A stretch of DNA of 64,000 bases, from positions 33,666,958 to 33,730,957 of the forward strand of contig NC_134842.1 in the NCBI RefSeq assembly GCF_965363235.1, written 5' to 3'. Below, in pieces: positions 11,240 to 63,458 of this stretch (positions are counted from its first letter, which is position 1; each line of letters begins with the position of its first letter). The DNA is from Mytilus galloprovincialis. Taxonomy: Eukaryota > Mollusca > Bivalvia > Mytilida > Mytilidae. The notes beneath the pieces are model-generated. The model made no database searches and was not told the DNA's origin. It saw only the letters and a program-made list of their open reading frames with translations. The position numbers were made by a program, and so were the translations under genes.

Positions 11240-12157
11240 CAACTTCTGAAAGACAAAATTTGCCATGTTTCTTACTACAATTTTTTTTAATATATTTTGT
11301 AACTGAATCAGATCGCTAGGCACGTGAGAACAAAAGGCATAAGTCACACCACCCCTCCTAAAACTGTTATGAATATAAATTAGGATCTCTCCCTGTCTTC
11401 AGAATAACAGATTTCAGTTTTTTATGGAACTGTGCATCAGTGAAAAAAAAGCAATGCGTAAGTGATTATATGGCTACTTAATAAAACGGTTGCTAGGCAA
11501 CCTTCCTTTCACTGGAACCAAAAAAAAACCTTGTTTTGCCTAGTTTCTAAACAAAGGCTATCAATGAACTATATATAAACTTATTCATGAAAGGGGCTAA
11601 AAACGCCCTTTATCATACCTTGTCCTTTGAGGCCTAAACGAAAAAAAAAACGTAAATCCTTTCATTTTACGTTTATACAGGCTCCAATCTTCACCTTATT
11701 CTGGAACAGTAGTACAATTTTACCAATAGAAAGACACAATAAAAGTTAATATATCAGCTCAATAATGTGAGATATATGGTTAGAGATGGTAGTGTTATGA
11801 CAAGACTTCTAAACTGACCATGTGAGGCAAAAATGTTATTGTTTTTATTTATAGGCATTTAGTAAGATGTGGACTGGAGACAAAACAGAATTGGATACTA
11901 TATAGAATATTGTATATTGGAATGATTAACTACTAAACTCTTCATAGTTTTCTAAATGCTTTTTATTTGTTATCAGAATAGTTTCAAGCAGGTTCTTGAA
12001 ATCATGTCACACAATATATACATAGGGTCTTGTTTTCAAATTCTTAAAAAATTGTAACAAGGTAGGGGGTATAAAATGTACTATAAAAGATATAGTATAT
12101 ACTTTGTAATACAGCTTTTTAACCAACCACGCCTCTTTTGGGGAGAAAGGAAGAATC
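11240..12157. other. Spacer without recognisable genes
   Basis: AT-rich. Contains the X-box palindrome and an inverted motif around ACGTAAATCC/TTTTACGTTTATAC (11640-11680). I find no coding signal. Confidence 0.5.
11488..11502. promoter_or_regulatory. X-box-like 15 bp palindrome
   Basis: GGTTGCTAGGCAACC is a perfect inverted repeat that closely matches the RFX-factor X-box. It stands in spacer DNA with no gene beside it, so a regulatory role is only possible. Confidence 0.35.
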
Positions 12158-12440
12158 ACAAAAGTACTGAACTCCTAGGAAAATTCAAAAAGGAAATTCC
12201 CCAATCAAATGTCAAAATCAAAAGCTTAAACACATCAAACGAATGGATAACAACAGACATATTCCTGACTTGGTACAGGCATTTTCTTATGTAGATAATG
12301 GTGGGATTTTTATTTAAGTAAACCTCTCACTTGTATGATTGTCGCATAAAATTCCATTATATTCACAACGACTTGTGAACAAAACAAACAGATATAATAG
12401 GTAAAAATGTCAAATTATAGGTACAATAGTCAACATTGTG
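12158..12440 (+). repeat. Mussel dispersed repeat R2, plus orientation
   Basis: Runs from AAAGTACTGAACTCC through ACACATCAAACGAATGGATA and TTCCTGACTTGGTACAGGCA to AATGTCAAA. This is a frequent mussel repeat. Other members are at 27792-28060, 29218-29315, 44868-44915, 45655-45785 and 54497-54600 (+), and 23885-24110, 24235-24545, 46490-46780 and 55800-55975 (-). The ORF at 12076-12294 is only its chance reading. Confidence 0.7.
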
Positions 12441-14090: not shown

Positions 14091-15152
14091 TTGGTTAGCA
14101 CATGTTAGAACGGAAATGACAAGAGAAATGCATATATAAGGAGTATATAGGTATGAAAACGAATTTATATAAGTAAATTTTTAAATTACGCCTTACTATG
14201 ATTTGATAACACATGTAAACACTGAAATGACAAGTGAAATTCACATATAAGGAGTATTCGTATGAAAACTAATGTATAATACTAAATCTTTGAATTACGC
14301 TTAAAGGTAAGCCTTAAATTATCAGCTATATTGAAACAACCAACTAGAAAAAAAGTGCTAAGTAATACTTGGACGAGTCCCAATTATAAAGACCGTTGGT
14401 TTTCCTGTTTATAGTGTTTTAAACTAGTAATTTCAGGGCCATGTATAGCTTGCTGTTCGTATTGATCCAAGGGTCCGTGTTGAAGGCCATATTTTGACCT
14501 ATGATGTTTTACTTTTCAACAAATTGTGACTTGGATGATTAGTTGTCTCATTAGCACTCATACCACATCTTTTTATATCTGTTTTACTGACGATGATAAT
14601 GCATAAAAAAACAGTATAATCTTATCTTTTAAAAATTAAATGTATTTTGTGAGTCTTGTATGATTTTTAATTTGGGTGCATTTATATGTTTTAGAGCTAA
14701 GTATGACGTCCATTTTCAATAAACTAGTACACAATGCTACGCTTGAAAACGACCTGGATAAGGAATAAAGAAACAAGATATCCTTCCGTGGCATTTTCAG
14801 GAAACATTTAAAATCGATGCAGTATCCGTACTCTTTACGATTATAGGGTAACTGCATGTAGACTATTTTGTTCAATTAAAAGAGTGCATTCAATTTATTT
14901 TTTACATCTTGATAGTTATTGAAATATTATGATTCAGTGATGGGAAAATAGTTTTTGACGATGACATTTCCCCCCAGATAGCTATCGCAAGATCTCATTA
15001 TATTTAGTGTGTCATTTTGACTTATCACAAAATGTAGTTACATATCCTAAAACCGAACATGTATGTGAACAAAATTGCTTAGAAGACCAACAAAAACGAT
15101 GCACACTTAAGGACCTGTTCATATTTGATTCAATACCTTTACAAATTTAGGA
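14091..15152. repeat. Leader segment L, copy 2
   Basis: Copy of 1-1062, followed directly by unit A copy 3 in the same order as at the left end. The only difference at the start is a single base (TTGGTTAGCA for TTGGTTAACA). The 170 bp before it (13921-14090) is a diverged relative of 1240-1410 inside unit A, so older rounds of duplication are also visible. Confidence 0.9.
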
Positions 15153-21690: not shown

Positions 21691-21753
21691 TTCTCTTTCG
21701 GTGATTGATTTTACTGTTTTATATTATAGATTGAAAAGAACAACCTACATGAC

Positions 21754-23222
21754 ATGATGGCGTTAAATAAGAAAGGATGGGCGAGACCTATATCAATTGC
21801 CATAGTAACAATATTAGTAACCATTTTGGTACTTAACGTTATGTCAATCAAATCGGAACCTAATCTATATAATGACAAACTGGAGGCTCCTTCCAATGAT
21901 AACGAAAGCATCGACAAATTTGTCTTTGCCAGAAACCAACTGTCATACAAATTGAACATTGCCAGGAGAGAAATTGGGAAATTGGAATGTGAGGTAATAA
22001 TTTTAAAACTGTTATAGACAGAAAATATTTGCAATTACTGTACATTTTTATGTGTTGGAATGGCATGCGATATTCAAGTCCTGGTATGGCAATAACAACT
22101 TTTAACAGTAAAAGGTCCATATTTTGACATGTAACTATTTTAGTGCGATGTACAAAAAATAACTATCTTTACGTCTGTTCAAAGTTAAAAACAACAAAAC
22201 ACAATTCACAAAACACAACCAAAATAAATCAAACACATGAAAGCATGCGCGACTCAAAGCTTTACAAATGGATATAATAAGTCATTACAAACAATTGAAA
22301 TTCCCAATATATATTTATCTAGTACGCATCATTTTCTGGAAGTAAAATTCCTATTCATAATAAAAATAAAACTATTGGACTACTACAATCAAATTTAGCC
22401 ATTGTAAATGTAAAATGTGTATTATAATAATTTTCTAGTATATATGTAGTCTTGCAAATTTAATATTATTTAAAATATTAAGGGGAAAGCATAATTTAAG
22501 TATATGATTAACACAGATATGGTAGATTATTTAAGAAGAACAACAGGTTTGACTAATTTCTATTACAAGATTACTTCGTTCGTTTATTCTAGATGTCAAA
22601 AGGAAAAAAAATTACAAGTAACCATGGAGGGTGGTGCAAAGATGCTAGCACTGAAACCGGTGGCCAACATCTAACAGATAAAGTATTTGTTCCTCACCTG
22701 TCCTCTTTTCTCAAAGACAAAACAGTGGGGAGTTTCGGAGATGGTCCTGGAGCATACAAACGTGAAATCACAAAACTACAAGAAGTTCGTTTGTATGACG
22801 CTTATGACGGTGCCCCGTATTCGGAGGAAAACAGTAAAGGCACTGTTAAATTTCTTGATTTAACAATACCTCAGTATGGAATTCCTGTTTATGATTGGAT
22901 TATTTCGTTAGAAGTGGCAGAACATATCCCTCAGGAGTTTGAGTCAATTTATTTAGACAATATCTTTCGACATGCAAAAGAAGGAATTATTTTAAGCTGG
23001 GCAATACCAGGTCAAGGTGGACTACAACATGTTAATAATAAACCATTAGAATATGTCATACAAGTAATGGAGAAAAATGGTTTCGTCAGAAACGATAATT
23101 TATCAAAGAAGTTGCAGAAGGCAGCCACATTTCGATGGCTTAAAAGAAATATCAATGTATATCTGAGGACAAATTATAGTACATTCGGTTCTGAGAAAAG
23201 ACTTGTGCAGTGGTTTAGTTGA
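21754..23222 (+). CDS. Membrane-anchored methyltransferase-like protein, two exons
   Basis: Exon 1 is 21754-21993 and exon 2 is 22593-23222. The intron (21994-22592) runs from GAG|GTAATA to TTCTAG|ATG and is phase 0, giving 289 residues. Residues about 12-31 form one hydrophobic segment after basic residues, so the protein is probably type II (Golgi or ER lumen). Residues about 58-80 could form a short coiled coil. The catalytic part resembles SAM-dependent methyltransferases widespread in molluscs and other invertebrates: GGWC at 92-95, a glycine loop SFGDGPGAY at 127-135, YDGAP at 151-155, DLTIPQYG at 169-176, SLEVAEHIP at 185-193 and SWAIPGQGG at 215-223. The loop has P where many relatives have another residue. 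The substrate is unknown. TATTATAG at 21722-21729 may be the acceptor of an upstream untranslated exon. Exon 2 alone begins with ATG, so a soluble isoform is possible. Confidence 0.88.
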
Positions 23223-24234: not shown

Positions 24235-24545
24235 GCTGTACCCCTATTTTTGACATTTTTACCTATTGTGTCTGTTTGTTTTGTTCATGCATCGGTGACA
24301 ATATAATGGAATTTGATGCGACTGTCATACAAGTGATAGGTTTAGCTAGCTATAAAACCAGGTTCAATCCACCATTTTTCACATAAGAAAATGCCTGTAC
24401 CAAGTCAGGAATATGACAGTTGTTATCCATTCGTTTGATGTGTTTGAACTTTCGGTTTTGCCATTTGATTGGGGAATTTCCTTTTGGAATTTTCCTTGGA
24501 GTTCAGTATTTTTGTGATTTTACTTTTTTTTCGAATTTTCCTTTG
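24235..24545 (-). repeat. Mussel dispersed repeat R2, minus orientation
   Basis: A well preserved copy, including GATGCGACTGTCATACAAGT, AAAACCAGGTTCAATCCACC and TTTCCTTGGAGTTCAGTATT. Confidence 0.75.
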
Positions 24546-31193: not shown

Positions 31194-31560
31194 ATAAAAT
31201 TGAGAATGGAAATGGGGAATGTGCCAAAGAGACAACAACCTGACCATAGAGCAGACAACAGCAGAAGGTCACCAACAGGTCTTCAATGCAACGAGAAATT
31301 CTCGCACCCGGAGGCGTCCTTCAGCTGGCCCCTATACAAATATATACTGGTTCAGTGATAATGAACCCCATACTAAACTCCAAATTGTACACAAGAAACT
31401 AAAGTTAAAATAATACAAGACTAACAGAGGCCAGAGGCCCTGACTTGGGACAGGCGCAAACATGCGGCGAGGTTAAACATGTTTGTGAGATCTCAACCCT
31501 CCTGAGTGAATCTGTTGTATTTGAGAAAATCCCATACCGTAAAGTTGGCTATCAGAGGCC
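31194..31560 (+). repeat. Mussel dispersed repeat R3, plus orientation
   Basis: TTGAGAATGGAAATGGGGAA, GACAACAACCTGACC, CTTCAATGCAACGAGAAATT and GGCCAGAGGCCCTGACTTGG are hallmarks of a very common mussel repeat. ORFs at 31158-31358, 31219-31413 and 31445-31630 are chance readings. Other members are at 33836-34098 (+), 38965-39085 and 48010-48145 (-). Confidence 0.8.
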
Positions 31561-32279: not shown

Positions 32280-33137
32280 CAATCAGTTTATTAGTACAGC
32301 CAAAACAATGGCTAATCATCATGTGGATTGATTTAAACAAACAAACTTAAAAGAAAACAAGAAACAAGAAATACAAGAAAATAGTCACTACAACTTTGTG
32401 GCTAACAACTTTATTGTAAAACAAATTAACAGTTCATGGCATATGACTTTGTTGCTGCCCTACATATACCAGCAGTAAGTAAGTAAGAATATTAATTATG
32501 ACACAGTAAAAAAAACGTATTTGAAAATGAGGATGCACGGAAGTTCTCCTTCTTTAAATATTTGTTGCCACCTTAAACCAATTAGCTCTCCAATGTCGAA
32601 GTCTTGTCGGATCGTAAGGCAATAAGTACCTTTTTTAGTTATGAAATGTGTATATTCTAGTATTTGAGCCTCATATATACATAAAATGCGAAGTTGGTGG
32701 AATATATCAACCAAAGATGCAAACAACCAAAATACAATTGGATCAATATATATGTTAATAAAAGTATTACTTTTTGTCTGTTACTTTGGCCGTTAGAACT
32801 TTTCAAAACTCTTAACTCTTTTTAAGTCAAAATAAAAATAGAAAATTGTCTGTTAATAGAAAAAAAATTGTATAATTGTCACCAAATGCAATTAAAAAAT
32901 CAACAAAAAAAAGTTTCTAAAAAAACAAATAAGCATAGGTTAGCTCAAAATCAACCAGTTTATATCTAATTAGGTATTTAAAAAACATACATAAAAAAAG
33001 ATATCATTTCAAAGCAAACAATGTATACATGTACCATTAGGTTTTCTTTTGTGTGATATCTCGAACAGTTTATAATGAACATTATACTAAGCTATGTAAC
33101 ATAAAGTTAAGATATAGTAGTGTTTTGTATAGCGCTA
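32280..33137. other. Region 3' to the microexon gene
   Basis: Probably contains the 3' untranslated region of the minus-strand gene ending at 33138. A clear AATAAA was not found close to the stop; a TATAAA variant lies near 33068 on the minus strand. The minus-strand ORF at 32496-32726 (76 residues) has no recognisable motif and is left uncalled. Confidence 0.4.
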
Positions 33138-36100
33138 TTACACTCTTGGAGGTCCTTGTGGTTCAGATTGATGTTCTTCGCCCTGTGGACGTGGTTGATG
33201 AGTATTTGGTCCCGGCTGGTGTCGTCCCTTAAACATCTGTATGGTATATGAAAGAAAGCAAAATATTCAAATTTATTAAATAGTATAAGAATTATTTATT
33301 TAAAAAAAAAAATACATTGTGTTTGCAGAATATATAGTAATTTATTTTATATTACAAATGGACTCCAGCTACACATTCAAAGTAAACCTCACACAAAATA
33401 AGGGTCTTAAATATAGACACTTTTGATTTGTATCCTTTTAGATTTGTATATGATTTGCTTTAATCACTTTTCGTGTCGAGTCTTCCTGATGTTAATGACA
33501 GATAACTGATATTTTTGTTAAATAAATTCACAAGTTTTAACTTATTTTTTTTCTAACCTATACGGGAATAGATTGCCTAAGCCGTATTTTGGCACTTTTC
33601 TTCTGAATTTTCGATTTTTCATTCCCTTCAATGTCATTTTTGATTTGGCCTTTCGACTGTTCTGATTTGAGCGCCACTGATGGAACGCGCATCTTGGGTA
33701 CACAACTATATACTTCTGGTATCTTTGATAAATTTTATTCATATTTTGGATGATTTAGAGCTGCATATATTGTAGGAACACCTGTCTATTATCGAAGACA
33801 GCTGCCTGGTGCTTTTTTTATTTTTTTTTTATTAAAATTGAGAATGGAAATGGGGAATGTGCCAAAGAGACAACAACCCGACCCGCACAGAGCAGACAAC
33901 AGCAGAAGGTCACCAACAGGTCTTCAATGCAACGAGAAACTCTCGCACCCGGAGGCGTTCCTCAGCTGACCCCTAAACAAATATATACTGGTTCAGTGAT
34001 AATGAACACCATACCAAACTCCAAATTGTACACAAGAAACTAAAAGTTAAAATAATACAAGACTAAAAAAGGCCAGAGGCTCCTGACTTGGGATATTTGT
34101 GTCTTTAGGTTAATGACGTCTATCATACATCTCCGTAAAATCAAACTGATAAAATTATTCAGAAGCATATATTATGCACAAGTAAAAGTTTTTTTTATCT
34201 TTTTTTAAAGATGGTATTAGTATGTATATGACGTATCCGTATCTTTAATAATCAAATAAATTTCAAAACATCATGTATATCTGAAATATAATACTCACAT
34301 TATATAGAATGCCAGCTCGGTTTTGCGAATTGTCTGGGGCTTTAGTTTGATCTTCACCCTAAAAGAAGTCGGAAAACAAATAGGAGCGTACATTATATAT
34401 ATATATAAGGCTTCTTAAAATAACAAAGTTTACAGGCGGAAACCCGGTTGAAATAGAACAAAAGAATCGAAGCTCTTTGTTAGAGAAGGCGATAAATGCT
34501 TACTGTAATGTTTACTATAGTAACAAAAAAAAAAAAAAAAATAAAAGTTAATAGAAACAAATCAAATGACAATTTTCTTCTCAATTACGAAGTGTTCTAT
34601 TATAAAAACACCATTTGCATAAGGTTTCAATTTATCTATTACATAATTAAGCAGAACAATTAAATATCAAGTCGACGACATGGGTATCTATCAAGTTGGA
34701 TACAGTAAATACATAACCTCCGATTTTTTTGAAAAAATTACCACGGACGGAGAACATATCAATCTAATAGTTCAGTAATTTTCGTGTCTGCCCTTCCATT
34801 ATGTGACTCAAGAAAAAATTCTAAAAAAATGGGTAACAATTGTATCGAAAAGAGAAAATCGAGTGCACCTTTTTATGTTAGGGCGTGTTTGAGTTGAATA
34901 TTTTGTCTAGAAAACGTACAAAGCAAGAATATTTGATACATCATCTCGCTTCAGATTCTATCATTTTTATATATCAAACCTACAGGTTGACCTTATTACA
35001 TACAAAAATCACAGTACTAAAAGATGAAATATATGGGTCAAGTGAAATACCTATCTTATGAATCATAAAAACAGAGTAGGTGTGTTCAAATAGCTATTTT
35101 TTTTTTACTAAAAGTACTTGACGACAGTCTTTCAAGTTGGATGATGAAAATGCATATCTTCGAAAAAAAAAAAAATTGTGTGTGATAACTAAAGGTTTAT
35201 AGTCTTCAACCACTAAAAAAATCTAGTCTGCCCTTCCACGAAATATTTAATTATAATTTTTTTAAATGTTTATGAATTTTCAAAAATTCCACCTGACAAC
35301 CGATTAGACAATAGTTTTAAGTTGAATCAATGCAGATACGATCATTAACTGATGCTCATTAGCTAGTAGATACATTTGTCTTTTAAAATACAACTTACAT
35401 ATAAGGATCGTAATGGTGCTATGCGGACAAATTTATCGGTTTTCAAGAGCAAAATTGACAGCGCGTCATCCCTACAATGGCTTCCATTTATACGATTGTA
35501 AAAATGAACTGGCGTAATGGGGAGATAATTTTGACGAAGTAGAATCCTGACTGTAAACATACAAAAAATGTTCAGTGTTATTACAATGTTTAAAAGCATT
35601 TTCCTATGTGTAACTTTCACCGACGCACAAACCACACATTTTTGGAATGAAAAAAAAATACGACTTGCCATACAGATATATCAATTTATTTCATGTTTTG
35701 TCCAGAATTCAAAATATGGTACTATGTTAAGCTTGCTGGGATAAAGAGAACATTTAAGGAATGACTGTAATATTTTTTTCTGTCTATGAAGAAATAACAT
35801 AAAAAATTTGGTGCACACTGAATAACGCGCGTAGCGGGTTATTTAACAGTGTGCACCACATTTTTTATGTTATTTCGAATAGACAGAAAAATTTTTACAG
35901 TCATTTCTTATAATTTAATTCTAAATTCCATTTTAAACCGTAGAAAACCATGAAAAAACGTTGATGACGTCACGGTCACATGACTAAATTTTGTCTATGG
36001 GCTCATAACAAAATAACGTCAGCCAATCAGAAGACGCGTTACATCCAAAATTAAATTATTTCCTATTAAATGCAACTAACATTTTTATAATGTCAGCAGC

Positions 36101-39100
36101 TGTGTGATTTAATCTGCCAAATATTAAGTTACTTACAGTCTCTACTTCAACTTTATGCCAATCCGTTTCTTCTACGTGATCACGTGGCAACTGCAACAAA
36201 ATTAAAACATTCATCAATTAAATGGTTTTTTTATCTTACACTTTTACTATTGATTTATATATGCCTAATTGGTATAATAAATTTGTAGTATAGTTCCGGA
36301 GTGTAAGTTTTTTTTAAACTAGCCAATCTGAATCAAAGACTGATTGTAGCAGCAATTTGATTTATGCGACCAAAAGTGAACATTTTGTAGAAGAGATCCG
36401 TTCGTTTGGTTATACTGACAATTTGCATTGTAGTTCGAGATACAAAAAAAAAAGACAAACATGTGATTATCTGAAGGGTTTCAAGTGATCTGAATCCATG
36501 CTTTCCTTACCAGTAATCCTGATGAACATTAATCAGCACGGAGATCGTCTATAAGGATAGTCCAATCCCCAATCCCCAAATGATTCAAAACATTTCGGTT
36601 TAATGTTTTAGAGGATAAAATTTGAAATTCTAATATGACGTGCTTCTTTTTCTTTGTGAACAAACCCATGCTCTAGATCCAATAAAATTTGTTTGCACAT
36701 GTGTATATTGACTTTTTCAGAATAATGAATTTGATCAAATTATCATGCACTTAATATATTTCCTTAACTTTAAAACACTTTCAAACTCTTAAATGGTGCA
36801 CATGATGTTTCTTATTCATTTATTATGACTGTAATGTGTTGCATTCCAAAATTGACATATTTGACCTAGATACGACAAACGTTCATGCTGGCTGTTCAAA
36901 CTCCTCTCTCTGAAAAATCACAGTGACAGCCGTTTGCTTCTTTAAAAACAAAAAAGGGAGGTTCATGGAAGAGCCTACACAAACGCTTTTACACTTATAC
37001 TTATCGGACATAGAAATTACCTTAATATTGTCCTATTCAGAATCGTAATAATTGATGCAAGCTATACTTTATTGTAGTTTTAACATGGGTAGGCATTATA
37101 TTCGTGTTATTTTAGCCCTCACTATCGCTAGGGCAAAAATAATCACGAATATAATACCTACCCATATTAAAACTACAATAAAGTATAGCTTGCATCAATT
37201 ATATCTTAAATAAGTCAAAGATACATTTAGCCTCTAGTGATTGGAAACAAATAACTAATATTTGTACGGAACTTGATACTTTTTTTCTGAAACATTTCCT
37301 GATGAATGGACAAAAATTTTCAGGGAATATGTTATAAAAAACAACAATGGAGAACTATGTACCAAAGATCCCGATAAATTTGCAACCCAATCAGTACTTA
37401 ATTAAGAAACTTTGTAAGGGTTTTTACAAAATAAACCACTTAAAGTTTCAAAAATTGAAAACTTTGTTCATTTTGGATTTGGAGTAACGGACCTCCTTAC
37501 AAAAGGAATCTTAATGGTTAATTGCATATCTAATTTTGTTTTACATACTTGTGTGTTCTTTGATCGTATTTCAGCTGATCCTCCCTGGAGGGGAATATAC
37601 TCTCCACGCTCATCTGTAATACGATATTATTGTTTTGTAATAATTCATTTTTGGGATTGATTGGCAACATTTTTATGTTTACTGGGCAAATGTTTATATT
37701 TCCGAGTCATGCTTTAGGATTGTTAATTTGTCTGTGAGGCCTTGTTGTGTTTTCTATTTTCAAGAGTTTTGTGTGTTTTTGAAATTAAATGTGAATTCCA
37801 CAGCAGAATTATATCAATTTTACCCTATCATTGGTAGGTGAACTCATTGACAACAACATTTGTCAAAGAACACAAAGCTCAGTCGCCATAACAGCAGTTG
37901 CTTTTACAATACATGTATTCCCTTTTATGTATAAAAATATGATTGTTAAGATTTGTTATTGCCTGTAATTAATCATCAGTAAATTTGAAAGAAAACTAGA
38001 TGGTAATTCTAATTTAAATTAAGGTTGAAAATACAGACTGGATTTAGATATCAGTTATTAGACAATTTGATTATCTTAGATTGTGTTGTTCTGTTGCTTG
38101 GTTGCTGTCGATGTTTAAACATCGTGTCTCTTTGTGTTTACATGATGAAGATATGCTTATAATAAATTGTTTAGAAACTTACTGACTAATCCCAAGGGTC
38201 CTCTGGGGTCGGAAACTGAAAAAAAAAAATAACATCGGTAAAATTTGAATCGTCTACATTGTGAACTAGATTTGTGGATGCCATTTTATTTCATTTCGAC
38301 GAATTACATCATAACAGATATAGATTGTAAGTATTAATCATTTGACTATAATCTTTTTTTTTATATACACCCGACCTAAAAACGCAGAAAAAGATAACTT
38401 CTTTAACAGATATATTAAAATTTTATTACATATGCATACAAAGTTATTGATAACTAGTTTTCACCTTTTTTTGGTTTCTAGAAACCAAAGGGATAATAAG
38501 TTGTAAATGCATGACCTTTTGACATTGAAGACTGCAATGTCAGAATTTTTACGGTGTGCGTTTGTAACGATAAATATATCCATACTCACATATATGCTTT
38601 GCATTTGCCTCTTCTATGTTATCAACTAGAACGAAAACAAATTAAACTTTATTGACAAGAAGAAAAACATTAAAAAAAAACAGCCTGTATGTTGAATAAA
38701 TACAATGGGATGCAGGTGAGCAAACAATACAGGTACTTTGACAGTACTTTATAAGATTACAAATCGTTTTTTTTTTTCATTTTTACACGAATATATACCC
38801 CCTTTTTACTTTCATCGACCAACTTTGCGTACGTTCAATAATCTTAAGTCTATTGGAATTAGTGTTAATGTGCTTAAAGTTAAACAAGTAATGCATATAA
38901 ATCACCTGGAATAAGATGATTTCAAAAAATTGATAAAATATTTGAATTAAAATGCAAAACTGCCAGAATCAAACTCCGGGTGCGGGAATTTCTCGCTGCA
39001 TTGAATACCTGTTGGTGATCTTCTGTTGTTGTCTGTTCTATGGTCGGGTTGTTGTCGCTTTGACACGTTTCCCATTTACATTCTCAATTTAACATTCAAT

Positions 39101-42031
39101 GAGAGATAACTCAATCATGTAACCATCTACGGTTGGAAATATTCAAGAAAGGCAAAGAACAATCAAGAGAAATGCATTACACCATCTACATGTATTTTCT
39201 TCAATGTTTTCTTTATCTAAATTTAAAATTCTTAAATGACTATTTTTCATTGTTTATACTTCTGGCCAAAAATGGGATTCAAATATGTACACATTATTTT
39301 GAAAGTTACATACCTTGCACGAGTTGACCAAAATCTGAAATAGACGAAACAAATATTGTTATTGATTTTATTTCTCATTCAATCCACCAATTTCTTAAAC
39401 ATTAAAGATGATAGACTTTTTAACTTTTATGAACTTTTGGTTCTCTATGCTCTTCAATTTTGTTCTTTATTTGACCTTTTAATTGTTTTTATTCGAGCGT
39501 CACTAATGAGTCTTTTGTAGACAAACTTACTTGTCTGACGTAAATACTAAATTTCAATCATGATTTATATTTTTTATCTACGATTTTGACTCTCCCTCTG
39601 GTATTTTTCGTCCCTCTTTTATGATGAGTTCATTTACATCGTATGATATCTTTTTTTTCATACTTGTAAAGCATTTGAAATATAAGAATTAGGAGATGTG
39701 GTATGGTTGTAAATCAGACAACTATTCACTAAAGTAAAAATGAAGAGGATGTATTTATATTAAGCAGTTCTAGGCAAACGTACGGCCTTTTACAATGAGA
39801 AAAACCCATCCTGTATATTCGGCTATATAAATGGCCGCGACATGAACAATATGATGCATTCATTGAAGAAAACCAACGGCTTAATTAATACTTAAAAAAA
39901 AATCAAAAAATAATTATGACAGACATGAACAAACGACAACTACTGAAGTATAGGCTCCAGACTTGGAATGGCAGATAAAGAATGTGGAGGATTAAAAAAA
40001 AAAAACATGAAATACATACTACATGCATATGTATTGTAACAGAAAGTAAATATTTACCTGGGTTTGGCGGGAAAATCAGTTGAGAACCAGGGGTCCCAAT
40101 ACTTCCAGGAGCACCTCCATGTGGCTGTAAATCTAAATTTTAAATGGTAATAATATAATCTGACAAAGTGTGGTACAACTCTTATTAGTTTGTTAAATGA
40201 TACCTACAACTAATGACAAAGATGTCATTCCAAATTCCAAGAAATTATTATTTTTTTAAAAACTGTTCACACGAACAAATATTACGAAAAGAATAAAGAC
40301 AAAATTAGTTCCTTTGATTAAAACGTTTGAAAAGTAGGAAAGCTTTTCGTGTTAACTTAGTATTTAATCAATAAGCGTCGAAATCAGAATTTAACCATCT
40401 ACTTACGTGGAGCGCTTCCTGGTGGACCAGCGCCATTACAACCTGTTAAATACAAAACAACGCTATTAAAGATAGAATTGATTTTTATAATCAAAATACA
40501 TACATTAATTTTGTAGCTTGTAGCATACTGGTAGCAGTGACTAGTTTTGTTAAAATTTAATAGTAGGTTATTTACAGCAGTAAGTATGTTAATATAAATA
40601 GTTAGATTTGATTTTCAGACACCATTGCTTTGTGCAGTTTGTCAAATATAATACTAGTAATTTCTATGACTTTGTCTTCAAAAGCATACGTTTCAGTTTC
40701 TTTCCAAAATTTTAACTTCGATGATAAAAAAAAATATATGCACATGATTACATGTTTCAATTTACTCGAATGCATTGTTTTTATTGGTTTTTTTTTTTTT
40801 TTTTTTTTTTTTATAATATTGCTTTGTTTTGTAGTAATTGTTTTAACTTTACACGAATACGATTAATATTATGTTCTTCTATGCTTGAATCTAGAAAAGC
40901 TGTGAACTAATGGTACGCCAAAACTTTACTATAACTTGCTTTAAAATGAGTGTAACTAGTATACATATTTTTTTTGTTGCATAAATTAGGCCGTTATTTT
41001 TCTCGTTTGAATTGTTTTACATCAATTTGTCAATTCGGGGCCTTTAATAGCTGACTATGCGGTATGGGTTTTGCTCATTGTTGAAGACCGTACGGTGACC
41101 TATAATTTCTGTGTCATTTTGGTCTCTTGTGGAGAAATGTCTCATTAGCAATCATACCACATCTTCTTTTTTTTTTTTTTACATATGTATAACAACTTGT
41201 CTTGGAACTAAATCATATATACTGGAAACCAATACTTACTTATTCCATTAACCAGCTGTAAAGATAATAAAAAAATGCAGTGTTACAGTTGATTAACTTC
41301 TAGTCTTTTGTAATTTCATCAGTAGGACTTTGAAACCTACGCGATGGTACTAAGCATATGTTGTATCCTTGTATATACATGTACATCAATGACATTAAAA
41401 TAATTTAGATGTATTTTGTAATATTTATTGTACCAATTTACGATGACTGTATTAGATTAAAAATAAAGGTAAAAACAATACTAGAATATAACAAAGAAAT
41501 ACAAACTGATAGGATATATACACCTTGCCACGAACAAAGCTCGAACTTGCAGCCTCCGAGTTAACAGGTTATATTTACTGCAGATTATCTTCTACAATAT
41601 AAGATAACTCGACCACAGAAGCCCCATGCAAATAAACGTTTAAACGAAGACAATAACAAGGTTGATAAGACATCCCAACTGGCTCGGGTACGTACACAAT
41701 GTTTGGTGGTGTTAATCCAAGTTTACGTGCGTACAAGCCTCTCATTTTCCGTATTTCGACAAATGTTCTAAAAATAAAACTCCGTGCATTCCAGCTACCA
41801 ACAGAATGTCCACTAGCTTGAACCGAAAATTGAAAGACGGCACATAATTTGCAAAGCAGTTTTAAAATGCGCTCTGTTCTACACGAAAGTAGCTGATAAC
41901 AACCGATGTTGGTTAACTATAGTCATATGAGAAACTGATCAGAAACAACGAATTTTTTCATCTTACATACAAAACCAAAACTAAATAATTATACTTACAA
42001 ATAAGAGAGAGATAATAGATCCAAATAACAT
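33138..42031 (-). CDS. Secreted protein of 175 residues from eleven microexons
   Basis: Exons in transcript order: 41999-42031, 41240-41255, 40407-40442, 40058-40132, 39314-39334, 38590-38625, 38183-38215, 37549-37613, 36137-36190, 34298-34357, 33138-33236 (33, 16, 36, 75, 21, 36, 33, 65, 54, 60 and 99 nt; 528 nt with TAA). Every intron starts GT and ends AG, mostly GTAAGT or GTGAGT or GTATGT, and the frame stays open across all ten joins. Introns 2-7 are phase 1; introns 1 and 8-10 are phase 0. The start MLFGSIISLLFLVNGISC is a signal peptide. The mature part is hydrophilic, Gly/Pro-rich early (GAGPPGSAP, GGAPGSIGTPGS) and Pro/Gln-rich at the end (HQPGPNTHQPRPQG), without membrane segments and with no cysteine after position 18. 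It looks disordered. The exon 4 acceptor was chosen at ATTTAG because only that keeps frame; another AG lies 8 nt further on. The family is not recognised. The layout is like schistosome microexon genes. Confidence 0.85.
33836..34098 (+). repeat. Mussel dispersed repeat R3 in intron 10
   Basis: ATTGAGAATGGAAATGGGGA to GGCCAGAGGCTCCTGACTTG. It lies antisense within the last intron of the microexon gene. Confidence 0.8.
34526..34543. repeat. Poly-A tract in intron 10 region
   Basis: A run of about 17 A. Confidence 0.85.
35757..36062. mobile_element. Hairpin element with CRE and CCAAT motifs (intron 9)
   Basis: 35757-35909 is a near-perfect palindrome with arms of about 70-75 nt (GGTGCACACTG against CAGTGTGCACC near the centre). 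The centre GCGCGTAGCG lies between AATAAC and GTTATT. Downstream are GATGACGTCACGGTCACATG (CRE-like), then AACGTCAGCCAATCAGAAG (CCAAT). The half from 35858 on is repeated at 58153-58354, so it belongs to a mobile family. Confidence 0.7.
37048..37203. repeat. Near-perfect hairpin, 155 bp (intron 8)
   Basis: The arms run ATAATTGATGCAAGC on the left and GCTTGCATCAATTAT on the right, pairing inward through GGGTAGG/CCTACCC and TTTTAGCCC/GGGCAAAA. The centre is TCACTATCGCTA. It would form a very stable stem in RNA or single-stranded DNA. Confidence 0.85.
38965..39085 (-). repeat. Mussel dispersed repeat R3, minus orientation (intron 5)
   Basis: GGGTGCGGGAATTTCTCGCT, TTGGTGATCTTCTGTTGTTG and TTTGACACGTTTCCCATTT. 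Confidence 0.7.
39690..39805 (+). repeat. Mussel dispersed repeat R4 (intron 4)
   Basis: GGAGATGTGGTATGGTTGTA through CAACTATTCACTAAAGT to AACGTACGGCCTTTTACAAT. Confidence 0.6.
40785..40812. repeat. Poly-T tract
   Basis: Uninterrupted T run of about 26. The ORF at 40630-40866 crosses it and is not coding. Confidence 0.9.
40988..41170 (+). repeat. Mussel dispersed repeat R1 (intron 2)
   Basis: GGCCGTTATTTTTCTCGTTT, GACTATGCGGTATGGG, GACCGTACGGTGACCT and CAATCATACCACATCTTCTT. Confidence 0.8.
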
Positions 42032-42100: not shown

Positions 42101-42108
42101 TATTTATA
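42101..42108 (-). promoter_or_regulatory. TATA box of the microexon gene
   Basis: On the minus strand this reads TATAAATA, 70 bp before the ATG at 42031. That leaves room for a short 5' untranslated leader starting near 42075. The start context is GAAGATGT. Confidence 0.7.
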
Positions 42109-56689: not shown

Positions 56690-57540
56690 GTAAACATTAT
56701 AAAAACATCGTCCTTGTTTTTAATGTATTGAACTTTAAGACTGTAAACATGTGCTTTCCCCGACGTACTATACAAGGAGTGGCTTTATCATCTCTGATCT
56801 AAGAATAATTCATTTTTGAAAGTGTAAATAAAAGGAATATCAGTGATAAAATTAGCAGTTGAATGTATAAAAATACTTTACACATAAATCGATTATTGAT
56901 TGCAATGTTATGGCGATTCAAGGCTTTGCTTCGGTCAGACTCCTTATTATTGCTTATTGATTGTTCTCATCGTCACATGCAGGAAATTTTTAAAATGACT
57001 ATCTATTGCAATCAGTACATACATGACATATCAATACTGAATTCACAAAAGACTAAATTAAAAGAATCGTCATTGATAAATCGTTATGGATGCATTGAAA
57101 TTGTAGACACTTCAGTCTGATAAATAAGTCAGTATGCTGATGTATATTTTATACGTAAAAATCTATATGTTTATATATACCATGTATATCAATCAATGAA
57201 CACGTAATATTGTAAACATTGTTAAAAAAGTTTTATGTATATGATATCATATTATGATAGCATAAACTCACTTTGTAGAGGAAAGTGTTTTAATTTACAA
57301 AATATGTTATCTACTACATATACTAACCACATTTTAATCTTTATCATTTGTAACTTCGATAAATAGTCACTTGAGTTAAAAAGATTAATAAGTACAGAAT
57401 GTAATACGTCTTATTTTTAGATGACGAGAAAAAGGTTAAGGTGACATGTCAGGTCCCATGTTAAGAAATGGTACGAAAAGTACACATACATGTATAAGTA
57501 AAATTGGTTAAAGAGACCTGAAACGGAAAGTAGGGTGTTT
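56690..57540 (+). repeat. Duplicated block, copy 1
   Basis: Matches 58540-60110. Landmarks are TTTTTAATGTATTGAACT, GAATGTATAAAAATACTTTA, GGCTTTGCTTCGGTCAGACT, ATGATATCATATTATGATAG and the AATGTAATACGTCTTATTTT stretch. An 85-residue ORF (56863-57120) survives in part in copy 2. Confidence 0.85.
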
Positions 57541-58152
57541 GATTATCTTCTGGTTAAAAATAGACAAAAGAGGAAACTTTGGATGCTACATGATCGTAAA
57601 ACTACTCCAGTTTACAAAAATACGATTAAAAAAGATTTTTCTGCTGTAATGTAAGGCATGGTTTTTTGGTAATTTAAGACTATGGTTTTTTTTTAAATTA
57701 TTTCAAATATAAAGATGTATAGTGTAGTTTAAAAAAGGATTATTTTTCTATTAAGCATAGAGGTAAACGGCATATCCGATATCTTTGTTATAAGAGTGAT
57801 TGATTGTTTAAGAAATGAAAAACTTTCGTACTCATTTTGTGAATTAACTCATACATAATAGTCGACGGCATCATTAAAATTAAACAGTTTATGGATATTC
57901 CAGTTTTCATGTATGTCGTGGATTCCATCATTTTTTTAGTTTGATATAAATAGACCATTGATTAATGTTTAAAAAAAAGTATCGAAAGGAAAAGATCAGA
58001 TAAAGATAGAACAAAATCTAAGTTTATCGTTCACTGTGCTTCCGTATTACCTCCAAGTCTATTTACAATTGTTTTACTCGCGTAGTGGTATAAACCATAT
58101 GTGGATTCTTAAAAATTCTAAAGAACTTCTGGATAATTTTAAATCTCGGTCT

Positions 58153-58354
58153 ACATTTTTTATGTTATTTCGAATAGACAGAAAATATATTACAGTCTTT
58201 TCTTATAATTTAATTCTAAATTTCATTTTAAACCGTAGAAAACCATGAAAAAACGTTGATGACGTCACGGTCACATGACTAAATTATGTATATGGGCTGA
58301 TAAAAAAATAACGTCAGCCAATCAGAAGACGTGTTACATCCAAAATTAAATTAT
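58153..58354. mobile_element. Half copy of the 35757-36062 hairpin element
   Basis: Follows 35858-36060 closely, with the CRE (GATGACGTCACGGTCACATG) and CCAAT parts, but lacks the left arm and centre. The ORF at 58036-58248 runs through it and is not a gene. Confidence 0.8.
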
Positions 58355-59016
58355 ATTAAAATACACCCATTAGATGTGCCAATACGTTTGAAAATAGAGA
58401 ACGGAACTAAGAAAGAAAGGAATACATTACAGTAACAGTAACTTCTGAATTGTGTTGAGGACTTGCCACGTTGGAGTTGCGTGCAATAAATCAGAGGTAT
58501 ATTTTCTGAGGAAAATTTTTAAACCTTACTGAGATAATATCTTGTAAACATTATTAAAACATCGTACTTGTTTTTAATGTATTGAACTATAAGACTATAA
58601 ACATGTGCTTTCCCGAAGTTCTTTACATGGGAGTGGCTTTATCACCCGTGTTCTAAGAATAATTCATTATTGAAAGTGTAAATTAAAGGAATATCACAGT
58701 GATAAGAATAAGCAGTTGAATGTATAAAAATACTTTACACACAAATAGTTTATTGATTGTGATGGCGATTCAAGGCTTTGCTTCGGTCAGACTCCTTATT
58801 ATTGCTTATTGATTGTTGTCATCGTCACATGCAGGAAATCATCTATTGCAATCAGTACATACATGACATATCAATACTGAATTCACAAAAGACTAAATTA
58901 AAAGAATCGTCATTGATAAATCGTTATGGATGCATTGAAATTGTCGACACTTCAGTCTGATAAATAAGTCAGTATGCTGATGTATATTTGATACGTAAAA
59001 ATATATATGTTTATAT

Positions 59017-59460
59017 ATTACGGATTACAAATGTGTCGAGGTTTGTGATTGGATAACAACACAGAGATGTCAGTATATATTCAGGAAACTGCCGGGGTAT
59101 ATACGACGTTTTTATCCCCAATTGGAACCTCAAAAACGTCATCATAACACCGGTTACTATGTGACGTAGTCAAAAGCTATCAGACTGTCAGAGGCTCACA
59201 GAGGGAAAATAATGACGTGCTTCAGTCAATAATACATTTTTGATACAAAATCACGCATTTTACACTTTTAATACTTAAATTTAATGTTAAAAGTGTTATT
59301 ATAAAATATTACATACACGATAAAATTATGTTCACAGCAAATTAGAAAATCCTTCACGTATGCCGAACATATCAGGTTGGGTTTTTCAATATATATATGA
59401 CAGTGTTGTCAACAAATACCTGCACTGGAAAATAACATTAAGTCAGGGGTAATCCGTAAT
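59017..59460. mobile_element. 444 bp MITE with ATTACGGATTAC ends
   Basis: ATTACGGATTAC at the left and GTAATCCGTAAT at the right are exact inverted repeats, flanked by TATA-type sequence. Inside are TTGTGATTGGATAA (inverted CCAAT), ACGTCATCATAAC, ATGTGACGTAGTC and AATGACGTGC. It is inserted in duplicated block copy 2 and absent from copy 1, so it is younger than that duplication. Confidence 0.75.
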
Positions 59461-59469
59461 ATATGTGTA

Positions 59470-59600
59470 ATTCAGGTCTCAGAAAGGGTATATACTGTGA
59501 CATTCCCGGCTCAGGGCTTATATCCCCTTCGCCTTCGGCTCAGGGGATATAAACTCTAAGCCGGGAATGTCACAGTATATACCCTGTCTGAGACCTGAAT
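59470..59600. repeat. Near-perfect hairpin, 131 bp
   Basis: ATTCAGGTCTCAGAAAGGGT pairs with ACCCTGTCTGAGACCTGAAT. The arms continue through ACTGTGACATTCCCGGC. The innermost pairing is ATATCCCC with GGGGATAT around TTCGCCTTCGGCTCA. It lies 9 bp from the end of the 444 bp MITE. Confidence 0.9.
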
Positions 59601-61012
59601 AACATATAATATACCATGTATATCAATCAATGAACCTGTAATACTATGAACATTGTTAAAAACGTTTTATGCATATGATATCATATTATGATAGCATTTA
59701 ATCACTTTGTGAAGGAAAGTGTGTTTTATGTATAAAATCTGACATCTACTGCATATACCAACCAATGAACCCGTAATATTGAGAAAACGTACAACAAAAC
59801 GTGTATATCACATGATATCATATTATGATAGCATAAACTCACTTTGTAGAGGAAAGTGTTTTAATTTACAAAATATGTTATCTACTGCATATACCAACCA
59901 CATTTTAATCTTTATCATTTGTAACTTCGATAAATAGTCACTTGAGTTAACAAGATTAATAAGTACAAAATGTAATACGTCTTATTTTTAGATGACGAGA
60001 GAAAGCTTAAGGTTACAAGTTAGGTCCCATATCAGGAATTGGTACGAAAAGTACAAATATATGTATAATTGGTTAAGGAGACCTGTAATGAAAAATAGGG
60101 TATATTTACAATACCTAACGTTTTTTATATTGTGAAAGATTTTAGATGTAAAGGTTGTATTGTGCAGTTAAATAAGGAAGTATTATGAAATTAGGCATAG
60201 AAGTACAAAAAATGCAAATAGGTTATCAATTATATGAGTTATTGATTAATTGTGCAAGATGTGAAAATTGTTCGTACTCGTCAATTCAAAAAATGTCATT
60301 TTAGAGAATTAAATCTTACACAAAAGTCCAAGGCATAATTAAAATTCAACAGTCTTCGAATGTTATACTCATTTCAGTTTTCATTCGTGTCGTGGATTCC
60401 ATTTTTTACTTTTGATATACATAGTACATTGATTGATGTATAAAAAAAGTATCGAAAGGAAAAGATTAAATAAAGATGGAACAAAATCTATGTTTATCGT
60501 ACACTGTGCATCCGTATTACCTTCAAATCTATCTTCATCTGTCAATAATAGTTAATCATAGATCAATTCAATCATGTCATGATGTATAGAGAAAAGCTTC
60601 AAAATTAATGTACACCCAATAGATATGCCACAACGTTTGCACATTGAGAACGGATGGGACACTTTACACTAATAATAACTTACATGCATGCAATAAATCA
60701 GAGTTGTTTGGTGTTTTTTTCGGAAGAAACAACACACGAACATGTAACTTTAGGTAACTTGTTTTTCAGAAACAAATTCTTCTGTCATTCAAAATAATTT
60801 CAATTTTATGTAGCCTGTTAGTCGAAATATCAATTCGTATATAATTTAAAACTAACATATATGAGGTATACGAACTACTAAGGTTTAAAGTTTATAGATG
60901 ACATCTCTATATATACAAATGCAATTTCCTTCAATAATTCTTTAAAAGTGTTCCTTATCAGTTTATAAATATTGCATCTACCAATTGTTGCAAATATATC
61001 ATTACGACTTAC

Positions 61013-62142: not shown

Positions 62143-63458
62143 GGCCACACCAAATTAATTAATAGTTCTTTGAGATTTTACCCCAAAAAAATGGGGCGAG
62201 CGAGCGAAATTTAAATTTATATTTTTAAATTCTTCGCCTCAAATTTTGAAGAAATATGGAGCGAGCGATATTTTTTTTCTCTCAATTTTTATATCTTTTA
62301 CCTAAAAGAAGCAACTGAATTTTCAACTCACTTAATTGAAAGGGGACATAATTTGATATAATTAAATTATCTCCCTTTTTATATGTATTTCAACTTTCTG
62401 CATTCTTTTTCATTTTGTTTTGTTGTTTGTATAATTAACACTGCACAAATATACACTTTTGAACATATTTTTTTATGCATGAACTTTATATGGATATCTG
62501 CTTTTAATATGCACTGCTTTCATCTGTAGTATATGCACCGTCTGGTCCTTAGACACCCTCTGTAGTATGCTAGCTAGCTTCTTGTAACATAACTGCATGG
62601 TGTGTGTTTTGTGTTTATGCATATGGATCACTAACCAGTCAATCCAAGCACAGTGGAAACTGGGGGTTCTAGCTAGTGCTACTTTACAATTAAATATCAG
62701 ATCAATGTCTGAGGCCCAATCAATGATATCAGAGTAAAGTCTTTGTGGCCCAGTGAGCTGTTTCCCAGACAAGGGGACAGGTTTATCAGGCATGTGTACA
62801 TGTAACTCATTTTGTGAGCTCATGAGTACCGAAAATGCATTAATTCCACTTGGTTTTGAATTTGATGCATCTTTAGTAGCAGTAGATCCATCATCAATTG
62901 TGAACTGCACATATTTAAAGTTTAGGTCATTACATATTGACCATACCATATTTTCGTCAGATATTTCGATACTAGAATCATCGAAACTGTTCGACTTACT
63001 TATTTGTATGGTTTTAATATTAATAATCTCACTTTGTGCATCGCTACATCGTTCAATGGCTTCTTGATATAGTTCCCTGAATGTCCGACATTTTGTTTGT
63101 GTTGCCGTATTTTTTAATATGTATGCCTTGTTGTTATTTTTGTCTGAATGTTTCACCACAGAAACAATCAGCACGTTTTCCATCTTTGCAACTTTTTTGA
63201 TCAGAATCAAAAATATGCTTGACAAATGACAAACACTGCATATTTTCAAACGCTTAATTGATAAAGATTTTTTTTTAATACCGGAATCGAGTTCGTCGAA
63301 AATGCGGATTTATTTTCGACGTGCGGGAATTTTATTTTTATTTTTATTTTTTGGTTTTGGCAGGTGAGGTGCGGGAAATTTATTTTTATTTTTTTATTTT
63401 AATTTCGGCAATTTAGGTGCGGGTTTTCCAAAGAACTACTAATTAATTTGGTGTGGCC
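62143..63458. mobile_element. 1316 bp DNA transposon, PIF/Harbinger-like ends, carrying an ORF
   Basis: The left end GGCCACACCAAATTAATTAA and the complement of the right end GGCCACACCAAATTAATTAG continue to about 30 bp of inverted repeat with one mismatch. TTA stands outside both ends (62140-62142 and 63459-63461), the 3 bp duplication expected for PIF/Harbinger elements. Sub-terminal DNA is rich in GCGAGCGA (left) and GTGCGGG (right) words. It carries one intact minus-strand ORF that does not look like a transposase. Confidence 0.8.
62473..63183 (-). CDS. Intact unknown ORF inside the 1316 bp transposon, 236 residues
   Basis: The start chosen is ATG 63183 (AAGATGG context; MENVLIVSVVKHSDKNN). 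An upstream in-frame ATG at 63249 would give 258 residues with a Cys/hydrophobic lead and a weaker context. It ends at TGA 62473. The first half is polar and Ser-rich (SKSNSFDDSSIEISDENMVW). Around residues 110-160 it reads SGINAFSVLMSSQNELHVHM and LTGPQRLYSDIIDWASDID. The tail is basic. I see no DDE triad, Myb-like helix set or zinc finger. It may be a captured host fragment or an accessory transposon protein. Remaining open in an otherwise decayed region suggests recent insertion or use. Confidence 0.6.
   Translation of the reverse strand: MENVLIVSVVKHSDKNNNKAYILKNTATQTKCRTFRELYQEAIERCSDAQSEIINIKTIQISKSNSFDDSSIEISDENMVWSICNDLNFKYVQFTIDDGSTATKDASNSKPSGINAFSVLMSSQNELHVHMPDKPVPLSGKQLTGPQRLYSDIIDWASDIDLIFNCKVALARTPSFHCAWIDWLVIHMHKHKTHTMQLCYKKLASILQRVSKDQTVHILQMKAVHIKSRYPYKVHA

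Follow-up and report, generated by a model that had tools for sequence, protein, structure and literature searches.

The analysed window is a 64,000-nucleotide stretch of Mytilus galloprovincialis DNA, and all positions below refer to it. Its minus strand carries, between 33138 and 42031, a gene of eleven exons, each present once at the coordinates listed below. All ten introns are of the GT-AG type and measure 274 to 1778 nt, giving a gene span of 8.9 kb. The joined coding sequence of 528 nt consists of 175 codons followed by TAA and contains no internal stop. An earlier note, made from the sequence alone, had proposed this structure; its coordinates, ten GT-AG introns and single 175-residue frame are reproduced to the base, as are its largest exon of 99 nt and its shortest of 16 nt.

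42101..42108, minus strand: possible TATA box TATAAATA, 70 nt before the ATG (8-mer pattern)
41999..42031, minus strand: exon 1, 33 nt; contains the ATG and the hydrophobic stretch of the likely signal peptide, followed by a phase-0 intron
41240..41255, minus strand: exon 2, 16-nt microexon; likely end of the signal peptide; asymmetric, phase 0 to 1
40407..40442, minus strand: exon 3, 36 nt; symmetric 1-1; CNGAGPPGSAP
40058..40132, minus strand: exon 4, 75 nt; symmetric 1-1; Gly/Pro tract LQPHGGAPGSIGTPGSQLIFPPNP; acceptor TTTAG
39314..39334, minus strand: exon 5, 21-nt microexon; symmetric 1-1; DFGQLVQ
38590..38625, minus strand: exon 6, 36 nt; symmetric 1-1; VDNIEEANAKHI
38183..38215, minus strand: exon 7, 33 nt; symmetric 1-1; FSDPRGPLGLV
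37549..37613, minus strand: exon 8, 65 nt; asymmetric, phase 1 to 0; NERGEYIPLQGGSAEIRSKNTQ, with the S-x-E site common to all four proteins compared below
36137..36190, minus strand: exon 9, 54 nt; symmetric 0-0; variable linker
34299..34358, minus strand: exon 10, 60 nt; symmetric 0-0; last part of the linker plus seven of the nine residues of the RAGILYNMF motif
33138..33236, minus strand: exon 11, 99 nt; Gln/Pro/Gly tail, closed by the TAA stop
32410..32415, minus strand: nearest AATAAA downstream of the stop, at +722; possible polyadenylation signal (pattern match only)

The exons had all been described as microexons. Cut-offs of 30 nt and 51 nt are in use for this class: two of the eleven exons fall at or below the first, for which the term is appropriate, and it does not suit the rest, even though six of the eleven are no longer than 51 nt. 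Introns 1, 8, 9 and 10 are in phase 0 and introns 2 to 7 in phase 1; therefore, seven of the nine internal exons are symmetric. The probability of seven or more symmetric exons is ~0.015 under general intron-phase frequencies, which makes the enrichment a weak hint.

The introns contain hairpins and dispersed repeats. A hairpin in intron 8 (37048-37202) has 66-nt arms that are 92% complementary, with 23 nt between them, and is at a guess a fold-back or MITE-like element. A second hairpin with 30-nt arms (35791-35876, intron 9) overlaps a 202-nt repeat at 35858-36059, a dispersed element that recurs at 58153-58354 with 95% identity, while 33886-34051 in intron 10 is shared with 31245-31410 (93%). 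Repeats are also found elsewhere in the window. Between 1063 and 19854, a unit of ~4.8 kb occurs three times at spacings of ~4.8 and 9.3 kb; its copies are gapless and 89-100% identical in 12 of the 13 three-copy families, and in the other family one copy is 74% identical. The stretch 1-300 likewise recurs exactly at 14091-14390, and these copies reflect a duplication that is either recent and segmental or introduced by the assembly. In addition, two direct-repeat pairs lie within 57001-60068 (57241/59812, 94%; 57001/58841, 98%), and a 159-nt inverted repeat pair (12146-12304 and 24369-24527) is 90% complementary over a distance of 12 kb.

Among 5.77 billion proteins searched, three clusters match the window protein. 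The first (P0001) is represented by an 'uncharacterized protein' of Mytilus edulis, 175 aa, from a 93.9-Mb contig, with 97% identity to the window protein. The second (P0002) is an 'unnamed protein product' of Mytilus coruscus, 173 aa, with 90-91% identity. The third (P0003) is an ENA protein of 198 aa with 53% identity, read continuously over 198 codons on a 997-nt contig. Since a contig of this length could not hold an 8.9-kb gene together with its introns, P0003 probably derives from cDNA. The alignment covers all ten junctions and is free of gaps between the window and M. edulis proteins, which differ by six substitutions in 175 residues, three of them in the signal peptide; the M. coruscus protein is two residues shorter, in the tail. 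These two predicted proteins are probable orthologues. The gene had been called hidden, but it is already present, without a function, in the public protein sets of M. edulis and M. coruscus.

No further homologues were found in a four-sequence profile search or in a search with P0003 alone, both at E up to 10. The homologue searches reach proteins that share 5-residue words and have 0.55-1.75 times the query length, and distant relatives may be missed. The matches listed by tblastn, where all rows for the three homologues were covered, include no second copy of the gene in the window, and those away from the exons have E values of at least 1.6. The family is uncharacterized, lacks a known domain and so far comprises Mytilus and one further relative, P0003.

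The junctions were tested one intron at a time against alternative GT-AG pairs that lie within 60 nt and preserve an open frame; these number 0 to 12 per intron (0 for intron 1). For introns 2-10, no alternative equals the fit of the given pair to the M. edulis protein. Against P0003, three alternatives for intron 9, in the variable linker, fit equally well or one point better. The exon-4 acceptor TTTAG is the weaker of two sites and lies upstream of a nearby TTACAG, which was rejected as it breaks the frame. TTTAG agrees with the M. edulis and M. coruscus proteins, and its pair outscores the four in-frame alternatives tried. An open stretch near 35.5 kb, noticed by eye, might have served as an alternative last exon; the three homologues carry the sequence of exons 10-11 instead.

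It had been argued that ten consecutive frame-compatible joins are very unlikely to arise by chance. To assess this, we scored GT and AG sites with general splice-site weights and chained them by a dynamic programme. At a threshold of -3.5, low enough to include all twenty splice sites of the gene (the lowest scores -3.2), a complete in-frame chain of at least 10 introns was obtained in 40/40 dinucleotide shuffles, and 29 of the 40 reached the score of 48.5 that belongs to the chain of the earlier note. Ten frame-compatible joins therefore prove little on their own, and the argument does not hold. The best chain of the region itself scores 93.5 with 25 introns at this threshold and was reached by one shuffle in 40. 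At the stricter thresholds of 0.5 and 2, which leave out some of the gene's own sites, the real best was reached by 0/40 shuffles in each case, and thus the real splice signals are enriched; a score of 48.5 was reached by 3/40 and 0/40 shuffles, respectively. The best chain at a threshold of 3.0 differs from the eleven-exon structure: it has three introns, and the two have in common exon 5 together with the donor sites of exons 3 and 4.

A chance chain of splice-like sites at a locus without a gene would account for the intron number and score seen at the lenient threshold. This explanation is refuted by the homologues, three public proteins that align over their full length and across all ten junctions, and we consider its probability negligible. 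Because these proteins match end to end and the junctions are unique with respect to the M. edulis protein, the sequence comparison makes it virtually certain that this is a real gene with the splicing given above.

A TATA box 70 bp upstream had been proposed, and TATAAATA does end 70 nt from the ATG, but it adds little: the window contains 22 copies, whereas 100 shuffles contain 14.75 on average and 22 or more in four cases. Its position upstream of the ATG is weak evidence because of this copy number. An Rfam scan at gathering thresholds and a tRNA scan gave no lead, and neither did a bacterial promoter scan, a method unsuited to this DNA.

The N terminus of the protein is hydrophobic, with a Kyte-Doolittle 9-residue maximum of 2.87 compared with 0.63 in the rest of the protein, and the same feature is seen in all four proteins. 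Judged by this hydrophobicity, a signal peptide of ~18 residues, ending near Cys18, is likely. Cys18 is the single cysteine and lies at the signal-peptide end, leaving a cysteine-free mature part of ~157 residues that contains 13.4% Pro, 12.7% Gly, 8.3% Gln and 5.1% His. P0003, with 2.2% His, lacks the enrichment in this residue. No N-glycosylation sequon is present in the mature protein, one S-x-E site occurs in all four proteins, and dibasic sites are absent from the three Mytilus proteins, with three in P0003.

All four proteins fall on the disordered side of the charge-hydropathy plot. AlphaFold2, run on the M. edulis protein, gave a mean pLDDT of 37.3 and a pTM of 0.15, with no residue at or above 70; as the alignment holds three sequences, this low confidence may reflect its shallowness instead of disorder. 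Together, composition, charge-hydropathy and pLDDT fit a mature protein that is probably largely disordered. The earlier note's signal peptide, in the form of a signal-peptide-like N terminus predicted from hydropathy, and its Gly/Pro-rich, apparently disordered product are thus borne out. So is its remark that it recognised no family for the protein: 0 Pfam-A families match at E up to 1. No PDB chain matches the sequence at E up to 1, and none of four words of the protein sequence occurs in the text of open-licence PubMed Central papers.

Other open frames of the window were also compared with Pfam. In 10 of the 25 window ORFs of at least 90 codons, three sub-threshold matches and none above the cut-off were obtained. 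A 278-codon open frame at 62473-63309 (minus strand) gave a sub-threshold alpha-kinase match (E 0.0073, 16.9 bits; cut-off 21.3). The region 21730-23222 (plus strand) contains an open stretch of 95 codons that includes a membrane-anchor-like segment, followed in this list by an open frame of 209 codons that looks methyltransferase-like to us; neither matches Pfam.

Comparison with P0003 divides the protein into two modules. The conserved Gly/Pro core (residues 19-104) coincides with exons 3-8, which are entered through phase-1 introns. The variable linker (105-136), the RA(G/S)ILYNMF motif (137-145) and the Gln/Pro-rich tail correspond to exons 9-11, each preceded by a phase-0 intron. Of the signal-peptide residues, 6/18 are identical in P0003, compared with 60/86 in the core, 7/32 in the linker, 8/9 in RAGILYNMF and 16/30 in the tail. 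By exon, similarity to P0003 is weak in exons 1 (3/11), 2 (2/5), 5 (3/7), 9 (5/18) and 10 (7/20), so that this homologue lends these five exons weak support; the corresponding values for the M. edulis protein are 4/5 in exon 2, 18/18 in exon 9 and 20/20 in exon 10. Exon 4 is matched by P0003 in tblastn with E 1.3e-9. The core is better conserved than a simple spacer would require; this points to specific binding or signalling and counts against the matrix reading given below.

P0003 has the same module order as the window protein and is homologous to it over the full length. It is 23 residues longer, owing to a duplicated C-terminal unit and small insertions. In its tail, the unit (H/Y)QPSPVGQQPGP(H/Q)GPP is present as two copies of 18 residues each, where the Mytilus tail is shorter. 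Three of the five internal indel events lie within one residue of an exon junction, with some uncertainty in the placement of the alignment. At the exon 3-4 junction, P0003 reads LDLQ, with one extra residue, where Mytilus has HLQ. The last intron bases before exon 4 in the window, read in the same frame, would also give LDLQ, although the window lacks an AG there. We infer that a three-base shift of the splice acceptor is the simplest account. As for the short symmetric exons, they are probably a trace of how the gene grew, with exons gained in frame and splice sites sliding, and not a splicing switch.

Several systems of secreted proteins encoded by short exons offer a comparison. Schistosome micro-exon genes (MEGs) give rise to variant proteins through alternative splicing. 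As set out in PMC5825161, ~80% of their coding region lies in symmetric exons of 6-36 bp. In the mussel gene, 175 of 528 nt lie in exons of at most 36 nt, even with the first exon and the asymmetric exon 2 included, and MEG membership was rejected on exon size. A signal peptide is among the defining features of MEGs, and dN/dS is higher in their mature part than in the signal peptide, according to PMC4350168. The mussel gene shares with MEGs the probably secreted product and several short symmetric exons. It differs in its conserved mature core, and no isoforms were seen at the level of the proteins compared.

With aphid bicycle genes, the mussel gene has in common a probably secreted product and short internal exons, a run of which is in one phase. 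Bicycle genes are recognised by a gene-structure classifier with a cut-off of 0.72 (PMC9168663). We applied the printed coefficients as a logistic model, taking exons that start at codon position 2 as their phase 2, and obtained 4.7e-5 for the mussel gene from this classifier trained on an aphid genome. The CYC motif is absent from the mussel protein, whose single cysteine is at position 18, and membership was rejected on both grounds.

Vertebrate secretory calcium-binding phosphoproteins (SCPPs) typically show disorder, small exons and S-x-E sites. The mussel gene recalls them in its probably secreted product, its frame-preserving exons and its one conserved S-x-E. Virtually all introns of SCPP genes are in phase 0, as stated in PMC6732285; the mussel gene has 4/10 introns in phase 0 and six in phase 1, and membership was rejected. 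The gene thus resembles all three systems in probable secretion and many short exons and is not shown to be a member of any. No open-licence PubMed Central paper on bivalve, mollusc or Mytilus microexon genes was found by title.

Our main reading is that this is a genuine, spliced and conserved Mytilus gene for a small, secreted, disordered protein, restricted to its lineage and most likely a component of the extracellular matrix, to which we assign a probability of roughly 50%. For mollusc shell formation, a class of secreted families that are lineage-specific and carry repetitive low-complexity domains has been described (PMC4897951). The mussel protein resembles those of the shell matrix and mantle secretome in having few relatives, in being probably secreted and Gly/Pro/Gln-rich, and in its apparent disorder. 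It differs from mollusc low-complexity secreted proteins, in a comparison by sequence, in that its core is not a simple repeat. The signal peptide would send the protein into the secretory pathway, where the mature part would stay largely unfolded; the conserved motifs and core would bind partners, and the flexible low-complexity tail, variable in length, would space or cross-link. Taken alone, a matrix role in shell, byssus or mucus, suggested by composition, is tentative and somewhat short of an even chance, and the role may be an ordinary structural one.

Among other roles, the protein could be a secreted precursor of a neuropeptide, hormone or antimicrobial peptide, with the RA(G/S)ILYNMF segment or the core being cut out of it. 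This fits the signal-peptide-like N terminus, the small size and the two conserved islands that flank a variable linker, with RAGILYNMF all but identical in P0003. Processing sites are not conserved, however: the dibasic sites are confined to P0003, and no amidation site is shared, with GR after MFK in Mytilus and RR after MFN in P0003. In addition, the mature protein is free of cysteine. We consider such a precursor unlikely, and a neuropeptide precursor was rejected as first choice in view of the missing conserved dibasic or amidation site. A reproductive protein, acting in gamete recognition or seminal fluid, is somewhat less probable again. While the small number of relatives found and the lengthened tail of P0003 are compatible with it, the level of identity among the Mytilus proteins does not suggest fast reproductive evolution, and half of the differences from M. 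edulis fall in the signal peptide.

It is also conceivable, at low odds slightly below those of a reproductive role, that the gene works like a micro-exon gene, its short symmetric exons being skipped to yield a variant secreted pool at the interface with microbes, parasites or the environment. The excess of symmetric exons and a probably secreted, disordered product agree with this. Against it stand the small share of coding sequence in exons of at most 36 nt and the absence of an exon-skipped form among the three cluster representatives, at the protein level. Protein identity to P0003, used as a proxy for the MEG dN/dS trend, shows the reverse of that trend for the core, which is better conserved than the signal peptide, but not for the linker. 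The bolder version, in which a free-living mollusc independently evolved a micro-exon secreted design and frame-neutral short exons are skipped or slid by three bases to make variant disordered proteins, is the least probable of these roles by a small step. The extra residue of P0003 exactly at the exon 3-4 junction, with its LDLQ reading, is one hint towards it.

The matrix reading is the one we prefer. The finding alone reveals no new mechanism. It does provide a gene whose longest exon is 99 nt and which was recovered exactly from raw sequence by way of its splice sites, and a mussel protein that is worth placing in mantle, foot or haemocyte biology.
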